Source: Alcaligenes faecalis
Lineage (GTDB): Bacteria; Pseudomonadota; Gammaproteobacteria; Burkholderiales; Burkholderiaceae_B
Direction of reading: 5' to 3'
Assembly: GCF_009497775.1 (NCBI RefSeq)
Contig: NZ_CP031012.1
Location: 3,499,235 to 3,563,234, forward strand
DNA: 64,000 nucleotides
Within the stretch, counting starts at the first letter, position 1. Every line of letters starts with the position of its first letter. The notes under the pieces are model-generated. The model was not told the origin of the DNA, searched no databases, and worked only from the letters and a program-made list of their open reading frames with translations. Shown in pieces: positions 54,097-63,520 of this stretch. Made by a program: the position numbers and the translations under genes.

Positions 54097-56520
54097 TTAG
54101 AACTGATACTTCACTGCCAGCATCATGTTGCGCGGCTCACCCCAGGTATAGGTGCTGTACCAGGAGAACATGGAGTAATAGCGCTTGTCGAACAGGTTAT
54201 TGACGGTAAAGGTGGCCGACAAATTCTTGTTGAAGCGATAACGCGCCATCGCATCCACCAGCCAGTAACCCGCGACCGTATGCTGCACCTTGCCCGGCGA
54301 TCCGGGGCGGCTGACATCCCCCCAGGTCTTGCTTTGCCAACGTGCGCCGCCACCCAGGGTCAGACCATTCAGGTCACCCTCGAAATCGTAGGTGGTGTAG
54401 ATATTGAATTGGTGTTCTGGCGATAAGGTGGACACCTTTTCACCATCGCGCCGCGACAGCTTGTAGGCATAGCCTGCGTGCATCTGCCATTGCGGTGTCA
54501 GCTGACCAGCCACTTCCAGTTCTACGCCATGAGTGCGCACACCTTGAGTCGCCTCGTAAGCGATGCCACCCGAAGGTGTGCGACCACCCGTTTCCTTGCC
54601 AAAGTTATCCTGACGCAGCTCGAAATAAGCCAGGCTGGACGTCAAACGGCCACCCATGAATTCGCCTTTGACACCGACCTCGTAGTTATCGCCGCGCAAG
54701 GGATCCAGAGTGCGGCCGCCCTCGTCTTGCAAGTCTTGAGGCTGGAAGATATTGGTGTAGCTGGCATAGACCGAGAAGTTGTCGTTCAGGTCGTACACGG
54801 CCCCGAAGTAAGGCACCCATACGCCCGTCTCACGCATATCCATCTTGTTGTAGTTGGCGTAGCGTGTGCCCAGCAGCAGCTTCAAATCATCACGCAGGTT
54901 CAGGCGCGTACTGACGTACAAACCATTTTCTCGTGTCACTTCACGATCGTCGCCCAGGTGCTCCCAGTTCATGCGGGGCCAGCGGCCATCCCATTCGTAG
55001 TAATTCGAGACATCGGTATTGCTGTTTTCACCGTAAGACGCATTGGTCCAGCGACGACGCGATACGCCACCCCCGACGACCAGCTCATGCTCGCGTCCGA
55101 ATAGTTCAAAGGGACCAGTCGCATAGAAGTCGGCTGTATTGGAGACCGTCTTACCCACGTAACGCCCGGACCATAAGGAGGTGCCTTTACCCGTCAAAGG
55201 ATCAGGATTGCCGGCAGCCACCGCCGCCAATTCGGAGTCATAACCATTGATCAGATGATTGAGCTGCACCTTGGCCATCCAGCCGTTGTCGAACTCATGC
55301 TCCAAAGTGGCAAAGGCCGAACGGGTGTACTGGTTCCAGCGGCTCCAGCGCGTACCGTTATTAAAGGAACGGTCCATATCGTTGAAGTTGCCTTGCGCGT
55401 CATAAATCGGAATGCCGCCCCAGGTCGAACCTTTGGGGTCGTTATCCTGCAAGTCCGCCCCCAAGGTCAGGCGGGTATCCGGTGTCAGGTCGGCTTCCAC
55501 AATGCCGTACAGCACCAAAGTCTGACGCTGGTAGTGGTCCAGCTGGCTTTTCTTGTCCTGATAGGCGCCGACCATACGGCCACGTATAGAACCTGTCTCG
55601 TTCAAGGGACCGGAGAAATCCACTTCGCCGCGATAGTTGTCCCAGGTGCCTGCGCCTGCACTGGCGTGGCCCTGAAACTCTGGCGTGGGCTTTTTACGAA
55701 TCATATTGATCGTGGCACCAGGGTTGCCACTGCCAGTCAACAGACCGGAGGCCCCTTTCAGGACTTCAACCCGGTCGTAAATCGCCATATCGCTGAGCGT
55801 ATTACCGGCGGAATAAGGCGAATCCCGCAAGGTGGGGATGCCGTCGTACTGGAAGTTCTTGATGTCGAAGCCACGTGCCTCGTAGGCGGTACGCTCGCTG
55901 TCGTAAGTAATGATGCTGACGCCCGGCGTATGGCGCACCACGTCATCAATACTGGTCAGGTTGAAGTCGTCCATCTTCTTGCGTGTGGTCACGCTGATGG
56001 CCTGCGGTGTCTGGCGTGGCGTCAGGCGTAAGCGGGTTGCCGTGGCAATCGTGCCCGCTGCATAAGTCCCAGAACCTTCGGTGATGTCACCCAACGCATT
56101 GCGGCGTACTTCGATACTGGCCAACGACTGCACACCGGCGTCATCAGCCACGGCACCGCTATCGGGCACGGCAATCAAGACATAGCCCTGATCCCGGCTT
56201 TGCACCTGAAACGGCTGCCCGGCCAGCAAGGCGGCAAAGCCTTCCTGCACGGAATACTGACCCTGCAAGCGCGGAGCGCGCAGGCCTTGCAGTCGGGAGG
56301 AGTCCATCACCAACGCTACCCCGGCCTGTTGAGCGAACTGGCTCAAGCGGCTGGCCAGATCCCCGGCTTCCAACGCATAGGCTTGGGTCGTCTGGCCCGA
56401 GGCTGGTGCCACATTCAGTATCAAGGCACCCACAAAGGCCAAGCCCAGCAGGCGGCGGCAGGTATTGGGCAGGAACGACGTCTTCACGAGCGCCAAAGGC
56501 GGCGCATTCTTCGGGACCAT
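54097..56520 (-). CDS. TonB-dependent siderophore receptor with N-terminal signalling domain (FpvA/FhuE type)
   Basis: This outer-membrane ferric-siderophore transporter also signals to FecR. The 807-residue precursor has a signal peptide ending near NVAPASGQ, an STN signalling domain (ALEAGDLASRLSQFAQQAGVALVMDSSRLQG), a plug domain (TPQAISVTTRKKMDDF, VEVLKGASGLLTGSGNPGATINMIRKKP) and a 22-strand barrel ending MMLAVKYQF. The start at 56520 has AAGGAGAG 8 bases upstream. It follows fecR- and fecI-like genes, the standard surface-signalling layout. The siderophore is unknown. Confidence 0.94.
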   Translation of the reverse strand: MVPKNAPPLALVKTSFLPNTCRRLLGLAFVGALILNVAPASGQTTQAYALEAGDLASRLSQFAQQAGVALVMDSSRLQGLRAPRLQGQYSVQEGFAALLAGQPFQVQSRDQGYVLIAVPDSGAVADDAGVQSLASIEVRRNALGDITEGSGTYAAGTIATATRLRLTPRQTPQAISVTTRKKMDDFNLTSIDDVVRHTPGVSIITYDSERTAYEARGFDIKNFQYDGIPTLRDSPYSAGNTLSDMAIYDRVEVLKGASGLLTGSGNPGATINMIRKKPTPEFQGHASAGAGTWDNYRGEVDFSGPLNETGSIRGRMVGAYQDKKSQLDHYQRQTLVLYGIVEADLTPDTRLTLGADLQDNDPKGSTWGGIPIYDAQGNFNDMDRSFNNGTRWSRWNQYTRSAFATLEHEFDNGWMAKVQLNHLINGYDSELAAVAAGNPDPLTGKGTSLWSGRYVGKTVSNTADFYATGPFELFGREHELVVGGGVSRRRWTNASYGENSNTDVSNYYEWDGRWPRMNWEHLGDDREVTRENGLYVSTRLNLRDDLKLLLGTRYANYNKMDMRETGVWVPYFGAVYDLNDNFSVYASYTNIFQPQDLQDEGGRTLDPLRGDNYEVGVKGEFMGGRLTSSLAYFELRQDNFGKETGGRTPSGGIAYEATQGVRTHGVELEVAGQLTPQWQMHAGYAYKLSRRDGEKVSTLSPEHQFNIYTTYDFEGDLNGLTLGGGARWQSKTWGDVSRPGSPGKVQHTVAGYWLVDAMARYRFNKNLSATFTVNNLFDKRYYSMFSWYSTYTWGEPRNMMLAVKYQF

Positions 56521-56583
56521 GAAATCTCTCCTTCTTTGGCAAGGTCTATCTGTTAAAGACGCACGAGCCCAAAAAAGCGGCAA

Positions 56584-57561
56584 TCAAGGCCTGAAATTAA
56601 TCATCAATCCTTCGTCTGACGTGTTCTGCACCTGCAATCGGGGATACAAGTCCTTCAGCAAAGCCAGGGCCGACAAGGGCTTGTCAGCAGGCAAGACGGC
56701 GCTAACCGTCAACCCCTCCATGCCCTGCGGATTGATCTGTGTTTTGCCGGAGTACTGGCGGGTGATCTGCTCCAGAGCCTGAGTCAAAGGCACATGCTCC
56801 AGAAGCAGTTGTCGCTGATCCCACGTGTGTATGACGCTGTTCACATCGGTCTGACGGTTTGCCCCCAGACCTTGCGCATTAATCTGCACCTGATCGCCCG
56901 GCCCCAGTTCGCGAGCCGCTTCCGGGCCCTGGGTGCGCGGATAAGCCAGCACCCGAGAAGACAGGACGGTCAGCAGGGTGCCTTGCGGCTGTTCCTGCAC
57001 AATAAATTCAGTACCCAAGGCTTGCGAGACGGCCTCGCTGCTCAAGACTCGCAAAGGCCGATCCGGCTGCTTGGCCACCACCACTCGGACCTGCCCTTCC
57101 AGCAGCTCAATATCCCGGTACTGCTTGCTATACAAAATCTTGACTTGCGATGCCCCGGCCAGCTCCAAGCGAGTGCCATCCTCCAGCACCACGCTGCGCC
57201 ATTCTCCGGCAGCGGTGTGTACGGACTGTTTGGACCAGGGCAAGACAAAGGCCAGAATCGGCAAGATGAACACCACGGCCCAGAGCAAAAGCATCATGCC
57301 CTGACGCCAATCGCGCAGCAGCTTGGGCCGCGCCGACAATCCTGCATCCAGCGCACTACGGCCAGGGGTGGTATTGGCCTGTACGGCCAGTTTTCTGACT
57401 CTGCCCAAGACCGCTTCCATACCTGCGGCCGCTGCTTCATGACGCGGGTCCAGCGCGCGCCAGGCCATGAACTCGGCCTGGGCCTGTTCGGTGAATTGTT
57501 CGGGATCGGACAAGAGCACAACCCATTGGGCGGCTTGTCGCTCTATTTCCTCGTTGGACAT
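56584..57561 (-). CDS. FecR-type anti-sigma/sigma regulator
   Basis: FecR proteins span the inner membrane, read the receptor signal in the periplasm and control the partner ECF sigma factor. The 325-residue product has an N-terminal cytoplasmic domain (EEIERQAAQWVVLLSDPEQFTEQAQAEFMAWRALDPRHEAA), one membrane segment (MLLLWAVVFILPILAFVLPW), a FecR domain (WRSVVLEDGTRLELAGASQV) and an STN-like C-terminus. A TTG at 57570 overlapping the sigma-factor stop is an alternative start. Confidence 0.91.
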   Translation of the reverse strand: MSNEEIERQAAQWVVLLSDPEQFTEQAQAEFMAWRALDPRHEAAAAGMEAVLGRVRKLAVQANTTPGRSALDAGLSARPKLLRDWRQGMMLLLWAVVFILPILAFVLPWSKQSVHTAAGEWRSVVLEDGTRLELAGASQVKILYSKQYRDIELLEGQVRVVVAKQPDRPLRVLSSEAVSQALGTEFIVQEQPQGTLLTVLSSRVLAYPRTQGPEAARELGPGDQVQINAQGLGANRQTDVNSVIHTWDQRQLLLEHVPLTQALEQITRQYSGKTQINPQGMEGLTVSAVLPADKPLSALALLKDLYPRLQVQNTSDEGLMINFRP

Positions 57562-57566
57562 GGGGC

Positions 57567-58079
57567 TCAAGCTGGGATCAAGGTCTGAACATGGAGCAAG
57601 GCCTGCACCAGATCATTGCGCACGGTGCGTTCGCTGACACCCAGGCGCTTGGCTACGGTGGCTTGCGTTTCCCCATCCAGATAGCAGCTCAGAAACACCA
57701 TGCGAGCCCGCGCGGGCAGCTCGTCCAGAGCCTGGGCCAACAAGGCCAGCGCCTCCAGAGTTTGGGCGCACTGCTCTGCCGAGGGTGCTTGTGCCCCTTC
57801 GGCCAAGGTCGCCTCCAAGGCTTCCAGATATGCTTGCTCGACAGCCATGCGTCGGCTGCGATCAATTAACAGCCTTCTGGCCGTGGTAGCCAGAAACGCA
57901 CGAGGATGACGTAAATGATGAACGGCAGAGGGGGCCAGCAGCAAACGCACAAAAGTGTCCTGAACCAGATCTTCCGCCGTAAAGCTGCAATGCAGACGCG
58001 CGCGCAACCACCGCAACAACCAGCCACGGTGATCCTGATAGAAATCTCCCATCCCGATGGGCGCTGACGGATAGTCCAT
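57567..58079 (-). CDS. ECF sigma factor, FecI type
   Basis: This is an iron-starvation extracytoplasmic-function sigma factor that should transcribe the receptor gene. The 170-residue protein has region 2 (GWLLRWLRARLHCSFTAEDLVQDTFVRLL) and region 4 (LPARARMVFLSCYLDGETQATVAKRLGVSERTVRNDLVQALLH). The ATG at 58079 has AGGG 5 bases upstream; a GTG at 58094 is the alternative. A Fur box lies directly upstream, so iron should repress it. Confidence 0.93.
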   Translation of the reverse strand: MDYPSAPIGMGDFYQDHRGWLLRWLRARLHCSFTAEDLVQDTFVRLLLAPSAVHHLRHPRAFLATTARRLLIDRSRRMAVEQAYLEALEATLAEGAQAPSAEQCAQTLEALALLAQALDELPARARMVFLSCYLDGETQATVAKRLGVSERTVRNDLVQALLHVQTLIPA

Positions 58080-58095
58080 AGACCCTGAACGCACT

Positions 58096-58117
58096 AATCA
58101 ATAATCATTCTCATTCC
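58096..58117 (-). promoter_or_regulatory. Fur box upstream of the ECF sigma gene
   Basis: AATCAATAATCATTCTCATTCC on the plus strand matches the 19-bp Fur consensus (GATAATGATAATCATTATC) at most positions and is placed 17 bases before the sigma-factor ATG. It fits iron control of the sigma-FecR-receptor set. Confidence 0.8.
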
Positions 58118-58264
58118 AAAATTATGACATGAAAAGACAAGGATTCTGATGGCAAGGGCCACAAGCGTCGTCTGGCCACGACAGATCGTCGCTGAAAAGC
58201 AGCTAATCGCCCTGCAAGGGCTGTCAAAAACAAAGAGGAAAGGCGTTCGGACTGGAAACAAGAA

Positions 58265-58294
58265 GGCGGGCATCGCTATCAAGCCATGCCCGCC
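58265..58294 (-). terminator. Possible terminator after the small MgtE_N-like gene A
   Basis: GGCGGGCAT and ATGCCCGCC form a perfect 9-bp stem with a 12-base loop, 73 bases after the stop of the small gene. The tail on the minus strand is only moderately T-rich (TTCTTGTTTCC), so termination is plausible but not certain. Confidence 0.55.
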
Positions 58295-58366
58295 TGACGA
58301 TCCATGCACAGATCATTGCAATAGCGCGAGATTAGGCCCCGAGTTTCCGGGGCATCTGCCAAACCC

Positions 58367-58684
58367 TTACATCACAAAGGAAGGCAGGGTCAGCACAGCG
58401 TGAGTGGGCTGGCAGCGGAAGCCTTCCACATCGTTCAGACGGGCTTTGGCACGACGGGACAGATGCTTGAGGACTTGGCTGCGCTCCACGGTAGGCAGTG
58501 TGGACAGTGCGTTTTCAATGGTGCGACCGGACAGGTCGTTGAGGGCATAAGCAAACTCACGAGCACTGTGGGTTTGCAGCAGCTCCAGCAGGTAGCCTTG
58601 GCGCTGACGGGATGCGGCAAGGCGCAGAGCGTCTTGCAGAGCGTTGTTGTGTGGAGCGGAACGGAACAGGTTGAGGCGGAACAT
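58367..58684 (-). CDS. Small protein A, stand-alone MgtE N-domain-like repeat protein
   Basis: This 105-residue cytosolic protein has no signal or membrane segment. Residues about 14-80 are made of short Leu-rich helices with the pattern seen in the Mg2+-sensing N domain of MgtE (LLELLQTHSAREFAYALNDLS, ENALSTLPTVERSQVLKHL). It is a paralogue of small protein B at 60869-61210 (shared LF, PH, LQxALRxA, LLxSH, FAxALxxLSxR, LPxxxRxQV). AAGGAGA lies 6 bases before the ATG. It sits behind leader copy A. Kinship to MgtE is a pattern-based inference; a role in Mg2+ sensing is not shown. Confidence 0.72.
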   Translation of the reverse strand: MFRLNLFRSAPHNNALQDALRLAASRQRQGYLLELLQTHSAREFAYALNDLSGRTIENALSTLPTVERSQVLKHLSRRAKARLNDVEGFRCQPTHAVLTLPSFVM

Positions 58685-58851
58685 AGCATTCTCCTTCGGA
58701 CACGGGGGCCCAGAAAGAGTGCTTACCTCATCAGAGGGGCCCGCTTTGTGGTCCAGCGTCCAATTGACTGGTCATTAAGGAGGCTTGCCCTTTACAGGAA
58801 CAAAGCCATAAAGAAGGATCAGGGTCCATTTACTTTTAAACGTGAGTAGTT

Positions 58852-58975
58852 AAAAAAGAAGGTGCAAAGGTTTTTGCACCAACAGTATTTTCGCATCTGG
58901 GTGTGGGCTTGTCTGCCAGGCATTGGCACACTTTTCATCACCCTGGAGCCATCAAAAATATACTTAGGGATACGT
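58852..58975 (-). promoter_or_regulatory. Structured leader, copy A (box plus hairpin and T run)
   Basis: On the minus strand the segment reads a conserved CCAATGC...GGC part enclosed by GTGTG/CACAC, then the box GATGCGAAAATACTGTTG (58897-58880). The perfect hairpin GGTGCAAA/TTTGCACC (58861-58880) follows, then TTCTTTTTT. The box and the layout recur at 61566-61700. Since the hairpin with its T run is a good terminator about 170 bases before small gene A, it could be an attenuator. It could also simply end the porin transcript (stop at 59073). Confidence 0.68.
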
Positions 58976-59072
58976 GATTTGCTCCCTTATCCCCAGGCAG
59001 CTACCGCTTTGCAGGCCCCAGCCCTTGGGCCTGATACAAGGTCAGCCCAAGCGCAGAAATGCAGTGCCTTAT

Positions 59073-60242
59073 TTAGAAGTGGTGTGTCACACCAAAAGCC
59101 ACACGGCTGCTACGCGGTTCGTTGGCATTGGCTGCCGTTTCCATATCGAAGCGACGTCCTTGAGCCGCAAAGGCATAGACGCTGGTACGGGGCGACAAGG
59201 CATGCACATAGCCCACAGACATCACCTGAATGCGACGTGCGCGCTCATCGGTATCCTCCCAGGTCCAGTTCGGACGGCCCAGGGACCATTGCAGCTGGAA
59301 CTCGCCCTTGCCTACAGGAATCGCCGTGCCTACATACCAGGTATCCAGACGGCCACCGTTAATGAACTCCGCCGGACCCAAACCTGCCAAGCCCTTGTCG
59401 TCCAGATGGGCCGGGCCATCATCACCATTCAGGCCCACAAAGCCATTGCTCTGACGGCTCCAGCCTGCCGCAAGGCGGGCTACCTCGAAGTCATAACTGG
59501 CACCCAATTGCCAGGCCGTAGGACGATTGGATTCGACACGGCTCAAGCTCTCGTAGCTGGCCCCCAGCAACCAGGGACCATCTTCGTAGCGCAAGGCCAC
59601 ACTATAAAGTTTGGTGCGAGAGCCACCCATGCCCTGCTCGCCCACATCCGCGCTGTAGCTGGCTCCCAACTGCATGCCCGCCCATTCCGGGCTGCGCCAA
59701 CTGAACTGATTGGAGATCTGGTAGTTGTCCGAGGCACGCATCAAAGCGCCCATGCCAAAGTCCTTCCAGGAACCCACTTCAATGGCAGAGACAAATTCCT
59801 GGCCCACGGTGTACTGACGTCCAAAACGCAGCTCGCCCCAGTTGTCACTGCCCAGACCCAGCCAGGCCTGATAGTTGAACAGGCGCTCGGAGTCCTCGGC
59901 CCGGCCTGTAGCCAGATCAATGCCGCTTTCCAGATTGAAGGTGGCACGCAGCCCATCACCCAGATCTTCATGGCCACGAATCCCCCACAGGGAATCCGTC
60001 TGCCCGCCGCTCAACACTTCACGCTGCGAGCCTTCACCGCTCACGCGCGTCCAGCCCAAACCGGCATCCAAAGTGCCATAGAGCTGCACCGAGGTTTCAG
60101 CATGGCTGTGGCCGGGCAGCAGCGCCCCAGCCAGACCGAACAGGGCTACACCTGCCGCCAAAGAAGCAGCTTTGCTCAATTGAAAAGGGCTGCACTCCAG
60201 CACACGACGCCAGCCGGAAGCAACAGGAACAGGTTCACGCAT
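59073..60242 (-). CDS. Gram-negative outer-membrane porin (general diffusion type)
   Basis: This is a 389-residue precursor of a 16-strand porin of the Bordetella/Neisseria type. It has a signal peptide (SKAASLAAGVALFGLAGALLPGHSHA), then SVQLYGTLDAGLGW, SLWGIRGHEDLGDGLRATFNLESG, GELRFGRQY and a C-terminal aromatic residue (VTHHF). The ATG at 60242 has AGGAG 6 bases upstream, so it can be made on its own. The frame is open upstream into an MgtA-like fragment for another 182 codons. The 93 bases after the stop hold a CAGGCCC/GGGCCTG hairpin, then leader copy A. Confidence 0.92.
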   Translation of the reverse strand: MREPVPVASGWRRVLECSPFQLSKAASLAAGVALFGLAGALLPGHSHAETSVQLYGTLDAGLGWTRVSGEGSQREVLSGGQTDSLWGIRGHEDLGDGLRATFNLESGIDLATGRAEDSERLFNYQAWLGLGSDNWGELRFGRQYTVGQEFVSAIEVGSWKDFGMGALMRASDNYQISNQFSWRSPEWAGMQLGASYSADVGEQGMGGSRTKLYSVALRYEDGPWLLGASYESLSRVESNRPTAWQLGASYDFEVARLAAGWSRQSNGFVGLNGDDGPAHLDDKGLAGLGPAEFINGGRLDTWYVGTAIPVGKGEFQLQWSLGRPNWTWEDTDERARRIQVMSVGYVHALSPRTSVYAFAAQGRRFDMETAANANEPRSSRVAFGVTHHF

Positions 60243-60788
60243 CAGAACTCCTAACAAGGTTTGATTACCCGTCGCCACCACCACACCTTGTGCGGTCCCG
60301 GCCACAACCCGGTCGCCCATGGCGCAAGTATCGGGTGCAGCCTGCAAAATGGCGCGGTTAAGAATCAGGTGATCCTGATGGATCAAGCGCAAATCCGCCG
60401 GCACGTAATCACCGGCAGAGAGCAGCACGATATCACCGACCACCAACATACGAGCCGGAACGCGGGACTGGTGATCCCGAGCCAGATCGTACATGGTCAA
60501 GTCGCGGCGCACCTGACATGTTTGCTTTTTCATGGTCTGGACCACCTGGACCAGATCGGCGGGGCTGGAACGCAGCACCCGTACTTGATTGGGGCCGCTC
60601 TGTATCAGACGGCGCAATACTTCATCAAAGGCTAGGCCGTGGCGCTGGGTATTCAGGGCCTGCAACACCTGCGGCACGCTGCGGCTGGCGTAATAGCTCA
60701 GCGCGCACTGGGCGCGACGCACCAGACGCACCGGGCCCTGATGGGCAACGGCCTTGTGATCGGGATGGAAAGACTGGCTTGCGCGCAT
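60240..60788 (-). pseudogene. Cut-down MgtA-type P-ATPase fragment, in frame with the porin
   Basis: These 182 codons run without a stop into the porin gene. The product matches the N-terminus of Mg2+-type P-ATPases (QRHGLAFDEVLRRLIQSGPNQVRV) joined directly to actuator-domain pieces (MLVVGDIVLLSAGDYVPADLRLI, CAMGDRVVAGTAQGVVVATGNQ). The two membrane helices that should separate them are absent, and so is the TGES loop. No P-domain (DKTGT) follows. AGAGGT before the ATG at 60788 suggests it is still translated. It may be a decayed transporter or a soluble regulatory module; a true fusion protein with the porin would mis-target the signal peptide. A longer start at 60812 exists. Confidence 0.62.
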
Positions 60789-60868
60789 GGGTACCTCTAC
60801 ATGATGGTGCAAGGACGGCCACCCCGCTTATGCAGACCAAGGGTGTCTTGCCGTCGCAGTAAAAAAGA

Positions 60869-61210
60869 TCAAGAGCGCTGGGGCTGGCGATACTCACGCA
60901 GCCAGTCCTGCGTGCCGTAGCGGTGCGGGAACAGGGTGAACAGGCTGGGCGAGGGGCCATGAGTCCGGCGGCGGCCCAGATGCCCTACTCGGACACCGGT
61001 ATGCATGGCGCTGTAGACCTGGTTGCGATCAAATTCGGGAAGCATGGCCAGAACATCGGCACGGACACGAGCGGAGAGCTCTGGCAAGGCCTGGGCAAAA
61101 GCCAGGGTACCGTGCGAGGCCAGCAAGTCGCACACGGCGACGGGGCGGTAAGTGGCGACAGCCATGCGCAAAGCGCGCTGCAAGCTATCGTGGGGGCGGG
61201 AAAACAGCAT
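60869..61210 (-). CDS. Small protein B, stand-alone MgtE N-domain-like repeat protein
   Basis: This 113-residue cytosolic protein is a paralogue of small protein A. Leu/Ala-rich helical repeats lie at about residues 8-70 (LQRALRMAVATYRPVAVCDLL, LPELSARVRADVLAMLPEF), followed by a basic tail (RRRTHGPSPSLFTLFPHRYG). AGGAGA is 6 bases before the ATG at 61210. The frame extends 11 codons upstream without support. It is the first gene after leader copy B and precedes the MgtA-like fragment by 80 bases. The bases before the two small genes are also alike (ATTCTCCT with GGACACGG or GGGCACACGG). Confidence 0.72.
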   Translation of the reverse strand: MLFSRPHDSLQRALRMAVATYRPVAVCDLLASHGTLAFAQALPELSARVRADVLAMLPEFDRNQVYSAMHTGVRVGHLGRRRTHGPSPSLFTLFPHRYGTQDWLREYRQPQRS

Positions 61211-61887
61211 GGGATTCTCCTGGGCACACGGCCACAGAAACACCCCACACGTCTTAGACCGTGAGGAACCTGGAGCCGGTGCTCAATTCGCAATGGGGTT
61301 TCATGCGGACATGAAACGCTGGGCAGAACGCAGGGCTGCGTCTTTCAGATTCAGGGTCAGGGCCCAAGAACGTGCTCCTTTAACAATCAAAAATATCGGC
61401 TGCCTGCCTGGGTATCCTGCATAGGCATCAGCCATACACACCCTGTCTGTTTCAGAGGGACAAGGCATCAGAGCTTGTCCAATCGGAGTCAAGCCCCAGG
61501 TACATAAGCACCTGAGGCTTGAGTCCGAGCGATAAAACAGAAAGAGCGCATGAAATCTACGGATCCCTCAAGAAAAATCCCGTTCTTGAGGAACAACAGA
61601 ATTTTCGCATCGCCACCCTGGCAGGGCCAGCCTGCATTGGGGCCTTGTGCATGGCCTTAAACATAAGGCGAATATGCCAAGGTATATATTTGCCCCGTCC
61701 GCAGGCCAATCCGGCCCGCATCCTTGGCCTGCCCTCTGCCCAAGCCAAATCCCCACCGCGCACCGGCAAGCCGGCATACGGGTTTTCCTGCGGGCACCGG
61801 CCAAATGGATTATTCTTGCAGTGTTTGCCCAGCAAAAAACCAATTCTTTATCCGTCAACGAAGACGGATGCGCAACAAAGCACCACC
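61211..61887. other. 677-base divergent gap between small gene B and thiG
   Basis: No believable gene lies here. The left part is the long 5' region of small gene B with leader copy B. The right part should hold the thiG promoter, but no TPP riboswitch (no CTGAGA and no ACCTGATCTGGATAAT-like core) was found. The thiG frame is open back to 61519, but this stretch has no family resemblance. Confidence 0.7.
61566..61705 (-). promoter_or_regulatory. Structured leader, copy B
   Basis: The minus strand has GGGGCAAATATATACC, then CCCCAATGCAGGCTGGCCC enclosed by GGCC/GGTGGC, then the box GATGCGAAAATTCTGTTG (61611-61594) and the perfect hairpin CCTCAAGAA/TTCTTGAGG (61566-61591). Box and order match copy A, but the hairpin sequences are unrelated, which speaks for conserved structure. 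Here no T run follows the hairpin. It lies about 360 bases before small gene B. Confidence 0.68.
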
Positions 61888-62694
61888 ATGACCCAAACAG
61901 TGAACAACGACCCCTTTATCCTGGCCGGAACCAGCTACCAATCCCGGCTGTTGGTAGGCACCGGTAAATACAAAGATTTTGATGAAACTCGTCAGGCTAT
62001 TGAAGCCAGCGGCGCTGAAATTGTGACCGTGGCCATTCGCCGCACCAATATCGGCCAGAACGCCAACGAGCCCAATCTGCTCGATTACCTGCCCCCTTCC
62101 AAATACACCCTGCTGCCCAACACCGCGGGTTGCTACACCGCTGACGACGCCGTGCGTACCTTGCGTCTGGCTCGCGAACTGCTGGACGGCCACAAGCTGG
62201 TCAAACTGGAAGTACTGGGCGACTCCGGCAATCTGTTCCCCAATATGCCCGAAACCCTGAAAGCCGCCAAAACCCTGGTGGATGAAGGCTTTGATGTGAT
62301 GGTGTATTGCGCCGACGATCCTATCCAGGCCCGCATGCTGGAAGATATGGGCTGTGTGGCCATCATGCCTTTGGCCTCCCTGATCGGTTCGGGCATGGGC
62401 ATCATCAACCCCTGGAACCTGCGTCTGATCATCGATCAGAGCAAGGTGCCTGTGCTGGTGGATGCTGGTGTGGGTACGGCCTCGGATGCCGCCATTGCCA
62501 TGGAACTGGGCTGTGATGGTGTCCTGATGAACACCGCCATTGCCGGTGCCCGTCAGCCTGTGATGATGGCCAGCGCCATGAATCTGGCTGTACAAGCCGG
62601 TCGCCAGGCTTATCTGGCTGGCCGCGTGCCCCGCAAATACTACGATGCCGACCCCAGCTCCCCTACCGAAGGGCTGATTCACTCCCGTACCTGA
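61888..62694 (+). CDS. thiG: Thiazole synthase
   Basis: ThiG builds the thiazole phosphate ring of thiamine from DXP, dehydroglycine and ThiS thiocarboxylate. The 268-residue product ([20 protein letters not shown] start) has [31 protein letters not shown], the Schiff-base lysine in [11 protein letters not shown], and the phosphate-binding [34 protein letters not shown]. The start at 61888 is chosen to fit the family length. thiS is not directly upstream; thiD follows by 7 bases. Confidence 0.94.
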
Positions 62695-62701
62695 TCGAGA
62701 C

Positions 62702-63520
62702 ATGATTCCCAATACGCTGACCATTGCCGGAGTTGACCCCTCCGGCGGCGCCGGTATTCTGGCTGATGTCAAAGCCATGAGCGCCCTGGGTGCTTATGCC
62801 ACCGCTGTGATTGCCGCTTTGACGGCACAAAATACCCAAGGGGTCACCGGCATCAGCCCGGTTCCTGCCGACTTTGTGCGCCAGCAGATTGATACGCTGT
62901 TTGCCGACGTGCGCATTGATGGCGTCAAGATCGGCATGTTGGGCCAGGAGGCCGTCACCACCGTGGTGGCCGAGCGCATGGCTCACTTCAAACCCAAGCA
63001 TCTGGTACTGGACCCGGTGATGATCGCCAAAAGTGGCGACCATCTGCTAGAGAAGTCAGCCGTTCATGCCTTGCGCGAGCAACTGGTGCCCCAGTGCACC
63101 ATGATCACGCCCAATCTGCCCGAAGCCGGTGTCCTGCTGGACGCCCGCCCGGTAGAAACCGTCAAGGAAATGCGTCAGGCCGCCGAGCGCCTGCGTCGCC
63201 TGATGAATCACAGCGATCAGCGCTGGGTCTTCCTGAAAGGGGGCCACCTGCCCGGTTCGGACTGCATAGACTTGCTGCACGATGGCGACAAGATGATCGA
63301 AATGCCCGCCAAGCGTATTGATACTGCCAATACGCACGGCACCGGCTGCACCCTGTCCGCTGCACTGGCCGCCCTGCTGCCCCAATACAGCAATGTGCCT
63401 GATGCCGCCCTGGCTGCCAAAAAGTACTTGTACGAAGCCATTGCCCGTTCGGGTGAACTGACAGTGGGCAGCGGACACGGTCCGGTGCATCACTTCCATA
63501 AACTGTGGCCATCGTCCTGA
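62702..63520 (+). CDS. thiD: Hydroxymethylpyrimidine kinase / HMP-phosphate kinase
   Basis: ThiD phosphorylates HMP and HMP-P for thiamine synthesis. The 272-residue ribokinase-fold protein has GVDPSGGAGILADVKAMSALGAYATAVIAALTAQNTQGV at the N-terminus, DPVMIAKSGD in the middle and the C-terminal anion-hole motif THGTGCTLSAALAA. It is coupled to thiG (7-base gap). Confidence 0.94.
   Translation: MIPNTLTIAGVDPSGGAGILADVKAMSALGAYATAVIAALTAQNTQGVTGISPVPADFVRQQIDTLFADVRIDGVKIGMLGQEAVTTVVAERMAHFKPKHLVLDPVMIAKSGDHLLEKSAVHALREQLVPQCTMITPNLPEAGVLLDARPVETVKEMRQAAERLRRLMNHSDQRWVFLKGGHLPGSDCIDLLHDGDKMIEMPAKRIDTANTHGTGCTLSAALAALLPQYSNVPDAALAAKKYLYEAIARSGELTVGSGHGPVHHFHKLWPSS

Follow-up and report, generated by a model that had tools for sequence, protein, structure and literature searches.

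The locus in the window

We analysed a stretch of 64,000 nucleotides of Alcaligenes faecalis DNA (contig NZ_CP031012.1, positions 3,499,235 to 3,563,234; hereafter the window) from a genome, G000, that consists of one contig of 4,159,911 bases, and within it a group of minus-strand genes with a putative link to Mg2+ uptake. The group comprises two small helical proteins (small1 and small2) on either side of an open reading frame (ORF) in which part of the Mg2+-importing P-type ATPase MgtA is joined to a porin, with a short leader ORF upstream of each small gene. Its features are listed below (A domain, actuator domain; TM, transmembrane helix).

61254..61367, minus strand: leader ORF 2, TTG start, 37 codons, (M)GPDPESERRSPAFCPAFHVRMKPHCELSTGSRFLTV, with GGAG 7 nt before the start; upstream of small2
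60869..61210, minus strand: small2, a helical protein of 113 amino acids, paralogue of small1
60860..60869, no strand: block junction, where about 3.7-3.8 kb present in genomes G004, G007, G008 and G009 is absent; 8 nt unaligned
59073..60788, minus strand: fusion ORF, 571 amino acids from ATG, with an MgtA-like N-terminus and A domain, a signal-like helix and a porin
60225..60788, minus strand: fusion residues 1-188, the N-terminus and A domain of MgtA, lacking TM1-TM2 and TGES
60099..60170, minus strand: fusion residues 207-230, a hydrophobic helix together with SHA|ETS, a signal-peptidase-like site, ahead of the mature porin
59073..60098, minus strand: Porin_4 barrel of the fusion, PF13609, E 4e-46
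58861..58880, minus strand: terminator-like hairpin followed by a T run, between the fusion and small1, from a pattern scan alone
58731..58829, minus strand: leader ORF 1, ATG start, 32 codons, MDPDPSLWLCSCKGQASLMTSQLDAGPQSGPL, lacking a clear Shine-Dalgarno sequence; upstream of small1
58367..58684, minus strand: small1, an MgtE_N-like helical protein of 105 amino acids

An actuator domain fused to a porin

The P-type ATPase fragment and the porin, taken for two genes in the preliminary description, turned out to be one ORF of 571 codons in which PF00122 (E 3e-11) and PF13609 (E 4e-46) match in the same frame, together with a marginal match to Cation_ATPase_N. The Porin_4 part scored 158.7 bits against a cut-off of 27 and contains beta strands in the predicted model. 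The N-terminal part had PRK15122, a magnesium-translocating P-type ATPase, as its best NCBIfam match (E 9e-20), and MgtA chains (E 4e-10), followed by SERCA-type pumps (1.5e-6), as its best matches in the PDB. Its GPN and GDI motifs are 52-53 residues apart in all 12 aligned fusions versus 116 in the MgtA protein P0044, none of the 12 has a TM-like stretch in this interval (maximum 19-residue hydropathy of 0.82 versus 2.18 in P0044) and TGE[SA] is absent from all of them; therefore, TM1-TM2 and the TGES loop have been lost. The fusion also lacks the P and N domains of the pump, the ORF running into the porin instead. In the AF2 model, with a whole-model pLDDT (predicted local distance difference test) of 67, the core block of the A domain reached 92. 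Behind it came a linker of low confidence, containing a helix at residues 207-222, and then the barrel strands. Under a permissive rule, a candidate signal-peptidase site directly precedes the barrel in all 12 aligned fusions.

Our genome searches scored the best first-look candidates (5 per genome for the fusion, up to 8 for the CorA protein x5 described below and 18 for the small-protein family), so that the counts given here are lower bounds. The fusion was full-length and open in at least 10 of the 268 family genomes, namely five of Alcaligenes, that of Bordetella trematum (G120), two of genus g4 (including G203, inferred to be Paenalcaligenes suwonensis), G090 and G222. PF00122 and Porin_4 occurred together in 12 of 62 proteins found by sequence, and those with a source name were called porin or predicted porin. 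The ratio of nonsynonymous to synonymous substitution rates (dN/dS) of the A domain was 0.04-0.11 in six of seven pairs and the fusion is under purifying selection; on the dN/dS values and the conservation we rejected reading it as a pure pseudogene. Codons 1-85 had a synonymous divergence of 0.30 (G000/G008) and 0.26 (G004/G008), versus 0.99 and 0.94 in the A domain, which suggests recombination or an overlapping signal in this segment.

We weighed the alternative that the porin starts at an internal ATG, the A domain being either a product of its own or a remnant of a degenerating mgtA. In the window and in G004 an internal ATG (MREPVPVA...) lies in frame with an AGGAG 5 nt ahead of it, which would fit this reading, as would the disappearance of the TGES loop and TM1-TM2 and the loss of the A domain in G001. 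However, G009 has a Leu codon in place of the internal ATG, which is shifted in B. trematum, the AGGAG is altered in G007 and G008, all 10 full matches have an open frame across the two parts, the A domain has the low dN/dS values given above, and the shortened gene of G001 still begins with the fusion-type N-terminus. We consider this alternative unlikely.

The surroundings of orthologous porins bear on how the fusion arose. Directly upstream of stand-alone orthologous porins we found the C-terminal half of a full-length MgtA in 17 of 18 loci (L089-L106), all from genus g3, the exception being L090, with no MgtA upstream; B. trematum likewise has a full mgtA beside a separate porin of the same family. 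The simplest history would be that the fusion arose from an mgtA-porin pair in which most of mgtA was lost. Eight of the 10 fusion genomes encode a full-length mgtA elsewhere. The other two, G090 and G222, had none above the cut-off and carry a complete mgtE after the fusion, in the slot of the B. trematum small1-like gene; the G090 product has PF01769, CBS and PF03448 and the G222 copy is 93% identical. The window genome itself encodes four corA and two mgtE genes. The genome paper of A. faecalis strain Mc250 lists mgtC, two mgtE and four corA genes, three of them adjacent, in a passage that does not mention the present locus (PMC7643998). In L113, L116 and L060 a small protein weakly resembling the C-terminal domain of MgtC adjoins the orthologous porin, without an intervening mgtA.

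The small helical proteins

The preliminary description placed two paralogous genes, of 105 and 113 residues, on the same strand around this region, and this arrangement was confirmed: small1 and small2 are 38-43% identical over 62-77 amino acids (E 3e-8 to 5e-7). Their dN/dS was 0.08-0.14 in four pairs, with 0.08 and 0.14 for small2, and both genes are, on these ratios, under purifying selection. The small-protein family was found in at least nine of the 268 family genomes and, like the fusion, thus recurs beyond chance; the neighbourhood itself occurs in more than one strain. A homologue of small2 in Acinetobacter (42% identity, E 5e-11 in that locus) heads a cluster described below.

The proposed likeness to the N domain of MgtE held up in part. 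The Pfam gathering cut-off of PF03448 (MgtE_N), 25.9 bits, was missed by all seven family members scanned; the closest were a small1 relative, P0076 (E 3.6e-5, 24.7 bits), and the Acinetobacter homologue (E 0.012, 16.6 bits), and the Pfam scan gave no MgtE_N match for the B. trematum homologue, P0063 or P0072. Profile-profile comparison of the family with MgtE_N gave an E value of 1.1e-5 over 37-40 columns. The predicted model of small1 has five helices, and its top three Foldseek matches were MgtE cytoplasmic domains, yet with E values of 0.8-1.2, and VIA-align tied MgtE with FliG. Alternatively, small1 and small2 might belong to another helical-repeat family, FliG-like or unrelated, that only resembles the MgtE N domain. 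We regard this as improbable, given that MgtE_N was the top Pfam match of both P0076 and the Acinetobacter homologue, over the same profile region, that MgtE occupied Foldseek ranks 1-3, and that G090 and G222 have a full MgtE after the fusion. The further suggestion that the small proteins act as Mg2+ sensors or buffers found no support, the proteins being below the Pfam cut-off and small1 having lost the equivalents of the MgtE residues D91 and D95.

A CorA block in relatives of the locus

In G004, G007, G008 and G009, the interval between small2 and the fusion holds about 3.7-3.8 kb encoding, in order, x1, CorA (x2, with the signature SMN), x3, CorA (x4, GQN) and CorA (x5, GQN), where x1 and x3 read as short one-helix membrane proteins. 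The CorA family profile PF01544 matched x5, x4 and x2 with 45.6, 143.6 and 140.9 bits (cut-off 27), and the SMN, GQN and GQN signatures replace GMN in Alcaligenes and B. trematum alike; GMN is kept in a different CorA of the window genome (L063). B. trematum has x1-x5, the fusion and a small1-like gene in matching order, followed by a histidine kinase and a response regulator. The cluster of Acinetobacter sp. Marseille-Q1618 (L076) runs from the small2-like gene through x1, CorA, x3, CorA, CorA and a porin to MgtC (PF02308, E 9e-35), a histidine kinase and a response regulator, the histidine kinases of the two organisms being 46% identical.

The gene for x5 was present in at least five of the 268 family genomes, and no x5 CorA was found at E ≤ 1e-40 in 369 class genomes, a sample that had no genome known to match, which only suggests a patchy distribution of the cluster. 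The names attached to 51 relatives of x5 include Pseudomonas, Comamonas, Acinetobacter, Serratia and Oligella. In four cases a porin and an x5 cluster have longest contigs of equal length, a hint that the two are linked there.

Several further loci were noted. On a Serratia plasmid (L186, AP028600.1), the sole record from the plasmid searches, x5 and part of x4 are found close to genes resembling those of integrases and transposases. A second, different trio of tandem CorA genes, only distantly related to x2, x4 and x5, lies about 14 kb past the window end (G000:C1:3576856-3579669; L067, L068); the idea that it is the missing block in a new position was rejected, as x2, x4 and x5 matched that stretch with E 3.7e-4 at best. 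Two genomes of the order have an MgtE_N-like stretch before CorA in one ORF (L150, 1491-2828, minus strand; L151, 1291-2673, plus strand).

Several metals are transported by relatives of CorA and MgtE, and the porin forms a channel for general diffusion, so the locus might serve another divalent cation (Co2+, Ni2+, Zn2+ or Mn2+). GMN is kept in none of the three CorA paralogues, x4 weakly matches the zinc transporter ZntB (E 0.0018), and the neighbours of the locus at window positions 54097-58094 read, in the ORF list, as a TonB-dependent receptor, fecR and a fecI-type sigma factor. Against this, the MgtL-like leaders described below, the adjacency of mgtA and porin and the MgtC of the Acinetobacter cluster point to Mg2+, and the ORF lists of the B. 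trematum and Acinetobacter loci, inspected by eye and not by a dedicated search, showed no such iron genes. We consider a role in the transport of another cation quite unlikely.

Leader open reading frames with acidic-proline starts

In E. coli, a destabilising EPDP motif in the leader peptide MgtL is described as linking mgtA transcription to Mg2+ (PMC11282234; PMC11552253). Leader 1 (MDPDPSLWL...) retains its 32-codon length and the MDPDP start in all eight Alcaligenes genomes having small1, and leader 2 ((M)GPDPESERR...) has an unchanged start, frame and stop in all five having small2. Between G000 and G009 leader 2 shows higher conservation than the downstream genes, with 164 of 178 aligned columns identical versus 277 of 342 (small2) and 1416 of 1716 (fusion). 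Similar leaders were found ahead of x1 (MDPEPPRRR...) and of mgtA (MPNSDEPEPRLR...) in B. trematum, in G090 and G222 (MPEDPEPRR...), ahead of the small2-like gene of Acinetobacter (MDPEPSCRA...) and, with the sequence MPSALDPEPRLR... (DPEPRLR), upstream in the genus g3 loci L061 and L112, the two loci that were read that far. A second conserved leader ORF with a GTG start, of the type MNTDSGDSSSRPxVDVAA (MDTDGCSRSKIARAA in L108/L109), sits upstream of the MgtC_C-like small gene or of mgtA in L112, L061, L113, L060, L108, L109 and L174.

Short ORFs with acidic-proline starts thus lie ahead of Mg2+ genes as defined by a filter that was written post hoc, after the Alcaligenes and B. trematum leaders were known. 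As background, 10 of 392 mini-ORFs preceded by a Shine-Dalgarno sequence passed this filter, a count in which L061/L112 and L108/L109 are near-duplicate pairs; as the window leader was counted twice, nine were distinct, six being leaders of these Mg2+ loci and three others. Two further passing ORFs were found in L174, one of them being the leader of mgtA in B. trematum. Codons for M[DE]P[DE]P (ATGGANCCNGANCC) had two matches in the 4.16 Mb window genome, one of them leader 1, and one match each in G001 and B. trematum, both being the leader. Over 11 genomes, five of the 16 matches were described leaders; by eye, no Mg2+ gene follows nine of the 11 others (all but one each in G007 and G009).

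Transcription signals and other elements

Pattern scanning returned seven terminator-like hairpins in the scanned stretch against a mean of 4.5 in shuffles. Because one of them precedes small1, this gene may form its own transcription unit in the window strain. No sigma-70 promoter was found in a scan of positions 58000-62000, and the sole metal riboswitch in the stretches scanned with Rfam was a yybP-ykoY element elsewhere in L061. A group II intron match lies downstream of the locus in G007 (L053, 13396-13546).

A putative Mg2+-uptake system across two membranes

The Mg2+ link proposed in the preliminary description was strengthened by four relatives with a CorA trio, two genomes in which a full MgtE adjoins the fusion, the mgtA-porin pair in 17 loci, MgtC beside the Acinetobacter cluster and the MgtL-like leader ORFs. 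What recurs together in Alcaligenes, B. trematum and Acinetobacter is an acidic-proline leader, a small MgtE_N-like protein, two short proteins, three non-GMN CorA proteins and a porin; the fusion of an MgtA-derived A domain to the porin occurs in Alcaligenaceae. As the cluster has relatives in other bacteria, it probably is a little-described magnesium-uptake system, and the locus in the window is, on balance, best read as a reduced copy of an uptake operon for Mg2+ limitation. The literature that we judged by title and abstract start contained no description of this gene set.

Several observations weigh against this reading. The window genome lacks the x1-x5 block and has in its place 8 unaligned nt at the small2 stop codon, and the hairpin between the fusion and small1 makes a single operon doubtful in this strain. 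Rfam scans of window positions 56500-63000 and of L053, L107, L061 and L108 detected no Mg2+ riboswitch. Leader 1 has no Shine-Dalgarno sequence, leader 2 starts with TTG, the acidic-proline motif is absent upstream of the full-length mgtA of Alcaligenes, and the 16 matches to the M[DE]P[DE]P code were not above those of the backward control pattern. With regard to MgtE, small1 scored 13.9 bits against MgtE_N (E 0.081) and small2 had no match, both under the cut-off, and D91 and D95, acidic residues of the MgtE Mg2+ site, align to R42 and Y46 of small1 in a weak 40-column alignment. The porins of G001 and of Acinetobacter have no A domain, which is therefore dispensable in G001, and dN/dS of the A domain was weaker (0.28) in the seventh pair, G090/G222. 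Moreover, members of the Porin_4 family have many substrates.

We infer Mg2+ control, membrane topology, cleavage and the partner transporters, and propose the following model. A fall in cytosolic Mg2+ would cause ribosomes to leave the leader peptide at its acidic-proline start, and the genes would then be expressed. The porin would widen the entry of Mg2+ across the outer membrane, and the fused A domain would stay at the cytosolic face as part of an N-in type II precursor, from which signal peptidase, by cutting at the signal-like helix, may free the barrel. Together with the small MgtE_N-like proteins, the A domain would act as a regulatory partner of inner-membrane Mg2+ transporters, which could be the CorA trio where present, or the full-length MgtA and MgtE encoded elsewhere in the window genome. 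A more specific proposal, which we put forward tentatively and hold to be rather doubtful, is that one polypeptide coordinates Mg2+ entry across two membranes. In this precursor a cleavable signal-anchor would join a decommissioned MgtA A domain in the cytosol to an exported porin, and cutting would yield equal amounts of an outer-membrane pore and of a regulator of MgtA or CorA tethered to the inner membrane. Free MgtE_N-like proteins would be further regulatory subunits, and MgtL-type leaders, here outside the enterobacteria, would control the whole through Mg2+ sensing by the ribosome.

If true, pieces of three Mg2+ transporter families (the MgtA A domain, the MgtE N domain and CorA) would have been recombined with an outer-membrane pore in one operon that includes the outer-membrane step, usually ignored in Mg2+ uptake, and Mg2+-sensing leader peptides resembling MgtL would extend beyond enterobacteria. 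The arrangement also raises the question of how the porin is exported with a 190-residue cytosolic domain before its signal helix.

Comparison with known systems

The closest regulatory parallel is mgtL-mgtA of E. coli and Salmonella, under EPDP- and Rho-dependent control, with which the present loci share a short ORF with an alternating acidic/proline start ahead of Mg2+-transport genes. The motifs differ, being MDPDP, MDPEP and GPDPE here instead of EPDP; the peptides are longer (22-37 codons) and precede small MgtE_N-like genes or the CorA-porin cluster and not mgtA alone.

Among the transporters, MgtA shares its N-terminal region and A-domain core with the fusion, which differs in lacking TM1-TM2, TGES and the P and N domains and in being joined to a porin. 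The MgtE N domain (PF03448) is echoed in the five-helix model and by the weak profile matches of some small1 relatives; unlike MgtE, the small proteins are free-standing, fall below the cut-off and have no CBS or membrane domain, and small1 has no D91/D95 equivalents. CorA (PF01544) is represented in relatives of the locus by three tandem paralogues with SMN, GQN and GQN instead of GMN, the trio being missing from the window strain. CorA and an MgtE_N-like stretch form one ORF in G025, with an MgtE_N match at the cut-off, and in G037, where the match stays below it with 24.8 bits; in the present loci these parts are in separate genes. A further related arrangement is the mgtA-porin pair of genus g3, probably Achromobacter, in which the orthologous porin lies directly downstream of a full mgtA, as two separate full-length genes rather than a fusion.

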